A DNA stretch of 48,265 bases, from positions 19,456 to 67,720 of the forward strand of contig JAHFEJ010000005.1 in assembly GCA_023248535.1 (NCBI GenBank), written 5' to 3'. The stretch comes from Nitrospinales bacterium (lineage in GTDB: Bacteria; Nitrospinota_A; UBA7883; JACRGQ01). Below, in pieces: positions 28,307 to 30,471 of the stretch (position 1 is its first letter; every line of letters begins with the position of its first letter). The position numbers and the translations under genes are program-made. A model generated the notes under the pieces. That model saw nothing but the letters and a program-made list of their open reading frames with translations, was not told the DNA's origin and did no database searches.

Positions 28307-29227
28307 ATGGAAAACCCGGCCACTAGCTCCAATAAAAAAGGGCTGCTGGCCGGGTTTATTCTTTTAATAGCCCTTTCCGCGGGCTTCATAGCCCTCATCT
28401 CCATCCTTCCTTTCGGCGGTGGCGGCAGTGAAAAAATCGCTTCCATCGGCAAGGATAAGATCGGCGTGGTCGAAGTCTTCGGCGCCATTATGACCGCCGA
28501 AGAGACCGTGAAGCAGATCAAGGAATACGCCAACGACAAGTCGATCAAGGCCATCATCATCCGCATCGATTCCCCCGGCGGGGCCGTCGCCCCCTCGCAG
28601 GAGATTCACGACGCCATCATCGCCGCGCGGCAGAAGAAAAAAGTGGTCGCCAGCATGGCCACCCTCGGCGCGTCCGGCGGCTATTACATCGCCGTGGCGG
28701 CCGATAAGATCATCTGCAACCCCGGCACGCTCACCGGCTCCATCGGCGTCATCATGAACCTGATGAACGTGCAGGAACTGATGGGGAAGATCGGCGTTCA
28801 GCCGATGGTGGTGAAAAGCGGCGAGTTCAAGGATACCGGCTCCGCCTTCCGCCCAATGACCGACCGCGAAAAGAAGGTGGTGCAGGATATGATCGACGAC
28901 GTGTACGGCCAGTTCGTAGCCGCCGTCGCCAAAGGGCGCAACATGCCCGAAGCGAAGGTGCGCGAGCTTGCCGACGGACGGGTGTATACCGGCAACCAGG
29001 CGAAGAACAACGGCATGGTGGACGCCCTGGGCGGCATGGAAGAGGCGGTGAAACTCACCGCGCAGCTTGCCGGTATCAGCGGCGAACCGGCGCTGGTGCG
29101 CCACGAGGAGAAAATGCTCTGGCTGAAAGAGCTGATGAGCGAAAAAATGGCCGGCAAATTCGATTGGCTGCTCAATGAAGTCGCCGTCCACAAGCCGGGC
29201 GTCTACTACCTCTGGTCGATGAACTGA
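28307..29227 (+). CDS. sppA: Signal peptide peptidase SppA (short form)
   Basis: A membrane-anchored serine protease that degrades cleaved signal peptides. 306 residues, single-domain 36K type. One N-terminal TM (LLAGFILLIALSAGFIALISI). Catalytic dyad Ser123 in GASGGYY and Lys175 in SGEFKDTGS; the 52-residue spacing equals that of the Bacillus enzyme. DSPGGAVAPSQEI is the conserved oxyanion region. In operon with rpsA. Confidence 0.94.
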   Translation: MENPATSSNKKGLLAGFILLIALSAGFIALISILPFGGGGSEKIASIGKDKIGVVEVFGAIMTAEETVKQIKEYANDKSIKAIIIRIDSPGGAVAPSQEIHDAIIAARQKKKVVASMATLGASGGYYIAVAADKIICNPGTLTGSIGVIMNLMNVQELMGKIGVQPMVVKSGEFKDTGSAFRPMTDREKKVVQDMIDDVYGQFVAAVAKGRNMPEAKVRELADGRVYTGNQAKNNGMVDALGGMEEAVKLTAQLAGISGEPALVRHEEKMLWLKELMSEKMAGKFDWLLNEVAVHKPGVYYLWSMN

Positions 29228-29246
29228 CCTCAATCTTTCTTGGTGA

Positions 29247-29292
29247 GTACATGCTCACAGCATGTACATTGGCGCAAAGCGCCGATTGCTTG
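29247..29292 (+). repeat. Two-hairpin repeat unit 1
   Basis: Stem I GTACATGCT-cac-AGCATGTAC (29247-29267), linker ATT, stem II GGCGC-AAA-GCGCC (29271-29283), then GATTGCTTG. It is a direct repeat of unit 2 with compensatory stem changes (see findings). Confidence 0.8.
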
Positions 29293-29321
29293 TCATCCCG
29301 CACTTGATGCAGGATCCAGAC

Positions 29322-29338
29322 ATATTTTCAAAGCTCTC
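29322..29338 (-). repeat. Interspersed intergenic repeat, copy B
   Basis: On the minus strand this 17-base block is identical to 10975-10991 of copy A. It is flanked by CATCCCGCACTTGATG, a sequence style common in bacterial intergenic repeats. Confidence 0.55.
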
Positions 29339-29354
29339 TTATTCCACTTAGTGG

Positions 29355-29401
29355 GTACCCAATTTATTGGGTACATTGGCCCAAAGGGCCGACTTCTCTT
29401 G
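29355..29401 (+). repeat. Two-hairpin repeat unit 2
   Basis: Stem I GTACCCAA-ttta-TTGGGTAC (29355-29374), linker ATT, stem II GGCCC-AAA-GGGCC (29378-29390), then GACTTCTCTTG. Same layout as unit 1 with different stem bases. Bases 29360-29380 also form perfect 21-base inverted arms with 29411-29431. Confidence 0.8.
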
Positions 29402-29435
29402 GCGCTGCACGCCAATGTACCCAATAAATTGTGTA
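29402..29435 (-). repeat. Two-hairpin repeat unit 3, inverted and degenerate
   Basis: On the minus strand a degraded stem I (TACACAA-ttta-TTGGGTA) is followed by ATT and GGCG-tgcag-CGCC. It is the inverted partner of unit 2, which makes the whole 29355-29435 block a potential cruciform. Confidence 0.6.
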
Positions 29436-29448
29436 TTCACCTATATTG

Positions 29449-29494
29449 AAGAAAGTTTTGATAATATTTCTGGGTGCCGGGTTATAAACCCGGC
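29449..29494 (+). repeat. Interspersed intergenic repeat, copy C
   Basis: Bases 29449-29478 match copy A at 24 of 30 positions. It ends in the perfect hairpin GCCGGGTT-ATA-AACCCGGC (29476-29494), in the same place where copy A has its near-palindrome. With units 1-3 it fills most of the 323-base gap between sppA and the deacetylase gene; no gene was seen in that gap. Confidence 0.6.
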
Positions 29495-29550
29495 GCGACA
29501 TCCATAACCAAAGGGTTGGCAAAGGGGCGGCACATACCTATAATCCCCAC

Positions 29551-30471
29551 ATGGGGGTTTGGTATTTCTTTTCGCCGCTATTCCTGGAGCACGATACGGG
29601 GAATCACCCGGAGAACCCGGAGCGGTTACGCGTCATCAACCGTGAGATCGAAAAGCTGATCCCGGTCGAGCAATGGATCGAGCCTGCGGACGCCACCATA
29701 GACCAGATAGCGGCCATTCACGACCGCGAATATATACAGGACGTAGAAAAAGCGTGCGCACTGGGGGCTGATGCGTTGGATATCGACACCCCCATCTGCC
29801 CAAAAAGTTACGCCGCCGCCCTGCGCGCCGCCGGGGCGGCCTGCAACGCGGTGGAGGCCGTTCTTGCGGGGAAAACCAAACACGCATTCTGCGCCGTCCG
29901 CCCGCCGGGGCACCACGCCGAGCAGGCCATCGGCATGGGCTTTTGCCTTTTCAACAACGTCGCTATCGCGGCGCGTTACGCGCAATCGCTTGGGGCGAAC
30001 AAAATAGCCATCGTCGATTGGGACGTTCACCACGGCAACGGTACCCAGCACTCGTTCGAGCGCGACCCATCGGTTCTTTTTATCTCCATCCACCATTGGG
30101 GCATCTATCCCGGAACCGGACACGACCACGAGATCGGCAAGGAGGAGGGGACCGGTTACTCGTTGAATTACCCGTTGCCCGCGTATTCCGGCGACAGCAC
30201 CTATCTCACGCTTTTCGAGCACTCCCTCATTCCGCAGATAAAGAAATTCCACCCCGACCTCATCCTTATTTCCGCGGGGTTCGACGCACACGAAAGCGAT
30301 CCGCTCGGCGGCATGAAAGTCACCGATGACGGTTTTGCCGCCATGACGAAAATGCTGGTCGATGCCGCGGACGAAACGTGCGGCGGAAAGATCGTATCGC
30401 TGCTCGAAGGGGGCTATAATCTGAACACGCTGGGGGCCACGGTGGCCCGCCATGTGAAGGAGCTTATGTAA
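29551..30471 (+). CDS. Histone deacetylase-like / acetoin utilization family deacetylase
   Basis: A 306-residue zinc-dependent amidohydrolase of the arginase/deacetylase fold (class II HDAC-like). Catalytic and zinc motifs: RPPGHHAE (His121-His122), [11 protein letters not shown] (Asp158 and His160 as likely Zn ligands) and [15 protein letters not shown], with a C-terminal LEGGYNL. Bacterial members act on acetyl-lysine, acetylpolyamines or other small amides; the substrate here is unknown. ATG 29551 has no good ribosome site. The stop overlaps the next ATG by one base. Confidence 0.92.

Follow-up and report, generated by a model that had tools for sequence, protein, structure and literature searches.

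Paired hairpins in a Nitrospinota genome belong to a family of short intergenic repeats almost certainly spread by RAYT transposases

Known REP systems and the repeat mosaic of the window

GTAG REPs are short, dispersed and mainly intergenic palindromes of one hairpin and about 20–65 nt, with the tag placed 0–2 nt before the hairpin. Earlier studies have established the GTAG tag, the formation of dimers, the REPtron layout and the rule that each RAYT has a single REP family (PMC2817692, PMC6006769, PMC8266576). According to a further study, REPs lie predominantly downstream of coding regions, heterodimers and stem-loops in the spacers of REPs have already been noted, and no transposase is known for the CGTC superfamily (PMC3733652). 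The repeats described here share several features with the GTAG REP/RAYT systems, REPINs and BIMEs: a hairpin preceded by GT(A/G)G, copies scattered between genes, dimers arranged head-to-head, and RAYT genes flanked by REPs of their own family, the REPtron (PMC2817692, PMC3116915, PMC3733652, PMC6006769, PMC8266576). What is unusual against those accounts is that each REP has two tandem hairpins, that pairs combine two arm types (GGCGC with GGCCC or CATGCC), and that the types of the second stem are common to several first-stem families. In E. coli, the Y and Z REPs of the BIME are likewise two different types joined head-to-head, whereas the REPs themselves are single bulged hairpins with GTAG (PMC8266576). 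The dimers of A. tumefaciens CGTC-3 carry two extra stem-loops between their outer REP hairpins, as do the 91-bp pairs found here, but they are CGTC-tagged and without a known transposase, while our repeats are tagged GT(A/G)G, are found next to RAYT genes and exist as lone two-hairpin units too (PMC3733652). Double palindromes flank a RAYT-like gene in the TIRYT/TIRtron as well; the TIRs are described as unrelated to GTAG repeats, whereas here the tag is present and the copies are numerous (PMC3733652). In the passages of the REP/RAYT literature that we consulted, no GTAG REP is described as having two hairpins in tandem.

The window, which is the whole stretch of 48,265 nucleotides from a Nitrospinales bacterium that was analysed, contains a REP mosaic, in which a unit on its own is followed by a CGTC-type REP and then by two units arranged head-to-head (a REPIN). 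The upstream gene (28307–29227, plus strand) encodes an S49 peptidase of the SppA/protease IV type (Pfam PF01343), and its stop codon is followed after 15 bp by the start of the elements. The downstream gene (29551–30471, plus strand) encodes a histone-deacetylase-family protein (Pfam PF00850), with a sigma-70-like promoter at 29516–29544 between the elements and the gene. Unit 1 occupies 29243–29292 on the plus strand (49.3 bits with the covariance model R1 introduced below) and comprises the degenerate tag GTGA (29243–29246), stem I GTACATGCT-CAC-AGCATGTAC (29247–29267), the spacer ATT, stem II GGCGC-AAA-GCGCC (29271–29283) and a tail. Unit 2 occupies 29351–29398 on the same strand (62.7 bits) with tag GTGG (29351–29354), stem I GTACCCAA-TTTA-TTGGGTAC (29355–29374), ATT and stem II GGCCC-AAA-GGGCC (29378–29390). 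The original prediction had described the shared layout of these two units and the perfect pairing of all their named arms in spite of differing stems, and both were found as described; the units start 4 nt earlier than it had placed them, at their tags, and the tail GAYTKCTTG that it gave to both does not hold for unit 2, which continues GACTTCTCTTGG. Unit 3 is inverted and lies at 29393–29440 on the minus strand (37.1 bits), with a degenerate tag GTGA at 29437–29440, an imperfect stem I at 29417–29436 and stem II within 29399–29415. The DNA fold recovered the perfect arms of 21 bp that it forms with unit 2, which had also been predicted. Units 2 and 3 together form the head-to-head pair (29351–29440, 90 bp), one arm of which is of the GGCCC type and the other of the GGCGC type.

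Between units 1 and 2 there is a CGTC-type REP-like repeat (29291–29340, plus strand) made of TGTCATCCCGCACTTGATGCAGGATCCAGA and the conserved tail ACATATTTTCAAAGCTCTCTT, which recurs at many loci of the genome and is present at the orthologous place in the relative G002. Judged by eye, TGTCATCCCGCACTTGATGCAGGATCCAG fits the description of the CGTC superfamily, namely a CGTC/TGTC tag, a stem of 8–9 bp beginning with AT pairs and a loop of 4–5 nt (PMC3733652). This repeat is regularly joined to two-hairpin units elsewhere in the genome, forming a larger mosaic, and a second CGTC-type REP-like repeat is located at 29472–29502.

The repeat family and the pairing of its stems

The original prediction depended on further copies and on conserved pairing, and both exist. 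A 206-base stretch of the window gave 105 BLAST matches in the genome from which it comes (2.87 Mb, 132 contigs), and R1, a covariance model built from units of that genome, gave at least 149. A two-hairpin scan that is blind to sequence, run over about 160 kb of loci enriched for matches, returned 140 raw hits compared with 3 in a Markov-shuffled control, and a stricter pass left 81 separate units. In 69 of these 81 units, chosen by geometry in a scan blind to the tag, GTAG or GTGG stands directly 5' of stem I. A strict scan of the named genomes with one degenerate DNA pattern gave no match, and a search for tRNAs found none.

An intact unit consists of GT(A/G)G, stem I of 8–9 bp, A or G, and stem II of 7–8 bp, thus two adjacent hairpins in about 46 nt, a length within the range of GTAG REPs. 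Stem I occurs in more than ten sequences (GTACCCAA, GTACACAA, GTACCCAT, GTACACGT, GTACATGC, GTACAGGC, GTGCGACA, GACGGACA, GTCACACA and others) and is nearly always paired. Stem II is of few types (TTGGCGC, TCGGCCC, TCATGCC and TTGGGCGC), of which the common ones span many stem I types, and it is usually two pairs longer than in the window (TTGGCGC..GCGCCAA, TCGGCCC..GGGCCGA); units 1 and 2 of the window each retain a single one of these two extra pairs, in the form T-G. Because of these T-G pairs, the GTGA tags and the imperfect stem I of unit 3, the window copies look degenerate and the locus may be dead.

The location of the units bears on whether they act as DNA or as RNA. With ORFs used in place of gene calls, 54 of the 69 tagged units are intergenic although ORFs make up 75% of the DNA, and the 3' end of a gene adjoins 52 of the 54. 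This position would suit structured RNA, the alternative that the original prediction had offered, in which the hairpins would work at the transcript level, by stabilising 3'-UTRs, ending transcription or serving as small RNAs, with their pairing kept for that purpose; the hairpins fold well, and one terminator-like match lies inside unit 2. On the other hand, the units favour neither strand with respect to the adjoining upstream gene (27/52), which weighs against a strand-specific RNA, Rfam yielded no match at the gathering score and only sub-threshold miRNA and CRISPR-repeat hits, and such an RNA would leave both the GT(A/G)G tag and the association with RAYT genes unexplained. We therefore regard structured RNA as a very improbable main explanation; the units may have a secondary RNA effect. 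Two further candidates were dropped, a CRISPR repeat (a sub-threshold hit and no regular array) and integron attC-like sites, which were considered informally.

Pairing was evaluated on sites picked by the tag and a GTAC left arm, with the variable bases of the right arm ignored; 71 of 92 such sites had a GTAC right end in range. In this unbiased test the five variable positions of stem I were paired in 96% of cases, compared with a mean of 64% and a maximum of 73% when the right arms were reshuffled in 2000 trials. A set of 34 units, which had been chosen as paired so that the GTAC test is the fairer one, showed 97.5% of cells paired and two-sided change in 12 of 14 pairs, with slid controls at 28–45%. 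The original prediction had read the compensatory differences between units 1 and 2 as covariation under selection on structure. Pairing is indeed kept across units, but these 'compensatory changes' are mainly differences between two adjacent, co-resident RAYT/REP families and not change within one lineage; the stem I difference arises chiefly because two RAYT families are involved. Among orthologous REP pairs in three species, next to the RAYT gene C47a, there is one compensatory change from T-A to C-G in stem II (in G002).

Twenty-four distinct head-to-head pairs were collected from the genome, each of two REPs in inverted orientation as in a REPIN or BIME, and nearly all measure 89–94 bp, typically about 91 bp. 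One GGCGC arm is combined with one GGCCC or CATGCC arm in 22 of the 23 typed pairs (50% under random pairing, p = 3e-6), and stem I of the GTACAC.. kind goes with the GGCGC arm in 18 of 21 cases and other stem I with the second arm in 19 of 25 (p = 3e-5), p-values that overstate independence in that copies share ancestry. The sole exception is the window pair itself, which was typed A/A by a tie, TTGGCCC being one change from either type, and is really GGCCC with GGCGC. In calculated folds of single-stranded DNA, four small hairpins are the preferred structure of two canonical pairs, while the C17 pair and the window pair prefer long hairpins, the latter folding into one (z −7.3). The resemblance of the 91-bp pairs to short inverted-repeat elements raises the question of an ordinary MITE, with terminal inverted repeats served by a DDE transposase and hairpins that are incidental. 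Since single units also occur alone with their tag, internal hairpins covary, and the genes flanked by units are RAYTs, we consider a MITE scarcely credible.

RAYT genes, relatives and an orthologous site

The Pfam domain Y1_Tnp is found at eight places in the genome, six of which are close RAYT paralogues; the other five are 52–57% identical to the C17 protein. The three RAYTs tested score at or above the cut-off of NCBIfam NF047646 (REP_Tyr_transpos) and below that of the IS200 model, which places them with RAYTs and not with the IS200 subfamily, and the best PDB match is 4er8, TnpArep (E. coli TnpA-REP relatives). All 16 RAYT sequences keep the HUH histidines H70 and H72 and, in the KYxYI motif, the tyrosine Y135 without exception.

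Two-hairpin units lie within a few hundred bases of all six close RAYT genes, and each gene type has its own stem I: GTGCGACA at C17, GTCACAC at both C91b and C47b, GTACACAA/GTACCCAA at C125, CACGGACA at C91a, and GTACAGGC at C47a, where GTATATGC, a variant of GTACATGC, is also present. The window units can be placed within this scheme. Stem I of unit 1, GTACATGCT, belongs to the GTACATGC lineage and is the stem I that stands on the left in the REP pairs at C47a and its orthologues L090 and L102, whereas units 2 and 3 belong to the stem I family of the C125 RAYT. The C91b and C47b RAYT genes (L073/L076) overlap the REP that follows them, their stop codon TAG falling within its GTAG tag (..GATGGTAGGTCACAC..). 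Further dispersed hairpins, of which GTAGGGGCGGGTTTAAAACCCGCCCCTAC is an example, stand beside a distant Y1 transposase ORF at L072 (G000 C99) and elsewhere.

The named relatives are Nitrospinota/Nitrospinales MAGs, several of them from groundwater. In most of these relatives the RAYT genes are likewise flanked by two-hairpin units; the RAYTs L086, L087, L088 and L089 have single-hairpin REPs, and therefore the second hairpin is not required across the whole RAYT family. In the RAYT tree, an orthologue group of C47a, L102 and L090 and a group of C17, L086 and L088 are supported, and most deep forks are unresolved. RAYT orthologues in three species retain orthologous REP pairs. The two-hairpin repeats are restricted to one family of RAYT-bearing genomes: R1 gave 73, 24, 117, 2, 47, 1, 12, 22, 0 and 134 matches in the relatives G001–G010, the first three being congeners, while genomes outside the family gave 0–5 weak matches. 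G009, with 0 matches, is the only family relative without a RAYT match.

RAYT domains also occur inside other genes. Four MAGs of Verrucomicrobia have a RAYT gene in frame within alaS, with double hairpins on its flanks (L122 145–3480, L123 82–3480, L125 82–3480, L127 148–3480); the open frame exceeds 1100 aa, continues past the end of the fetched stretch and reads alanyl-tRNA synthetase, Y1 transposase, alanyl-tRNA synthetase (domains shown for L122). Our literature search found no description of a RAYT inside alaS. Similarly, a RAYT domain lies in frame inside recG in a Verrucomicrobia MAG (L126 19–3072) and inside a Ham1/RdgB-type gene in a Cyanobacteria MAG (L121 979–2232).

The gap between the sppA and deacetylase genes could be compared with its orthologue in one relative, G002, where two-hairpin units are absent and the CGTC repeat is accompanied by an unlike GTAG REP (GGTAGCGGCGGCACTCTTGCCGCCG); since the gap there is otherwise rearranged and has an extra ORF, it cannot be taken as a clean empty site. 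This comparison touches on the idea that the units are palindromes with a host function (protein binding, supercoiling or chromosome organisation) kept by selection on the cell. The copies are numerous, and REPs elsewhere are bound by IHF, Pol I and gyrase (PMC6006769). Yet the sppA–deacetylase site differs in G002, and copy number broadly tracks the presence of RAYTs in the family. A host function is thus most unlikely to be the principal explanation, and could be a secondary use of the units.

The original prediction of a REP-type element moved by a trans-acting transposase is supported by the GT(A/G)G tag, the dispersed intergenic copies, the head-to-head pairs and the RAYT genes flanked by such units in this genome and in its relatives. 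The paired hairpins of the window are members of a family of short intergenic repeats, over 100 in number, that has almost certainly been spread by RAYTs, small transposases of single-stranded DNA, encoded elsewhere in the same Nitrospinota genome. We conclude, with a probability of roughly 0.93, that the units are non-autonomous mobile REP DNA, recognised and moved by cognate RAYTs, the cleavage and the movement being what the sequences lead us to infer.

A possible role for the second hairpin

Movement might proceed as follows. When the strand becomes single, for example as lagging-strand template in replication, GT(A/G)G and the hairpins would fold, and the cognate RAYT, an IS200/IS605-like HUH enzyme with one catalytic tyrosine, would recognise the tag together with the folded hairpins. 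By cutting and rejoining the strand it would copy or move the unit to other intergenic sites. In such a scheme the tag would serve as the guide, stem I as the hairpin that varies from RAYT to RAYT, and stem II as an accessory hairpin common to the stem I families of one genome; pairing would presumably be kept because the transposase requires it. Tentatively, and at somewhat less than even odds, we suggest that the Nitrospinota RAYT lineage, perhaps with that of Verrucomicrobia, uses a two-hairpin REP in which stem I identifies the RAYT and stem II is exchangeable and common to most of a genome's families, and in which pairs must combine two different types of arm, a rule that might favour four small hairpins over one long cruciform.

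The first hairpin with its tag alone fits the usual description of a single-hairpin GTAG REP, and searches for single hairpins would describe such units only in part. With this family, REP/RAYT biology now reaches groundwater Nitrospinota, an under-studied phylum. The presence of six RAYTs in one genome, whose REP families differ mainly in one stem, constitutes a natural experiment on the co-evolution of HUH transposases and DNA hairpins, and it bears on what a second hairpin determines, be it specificity or how the two ends are paired.
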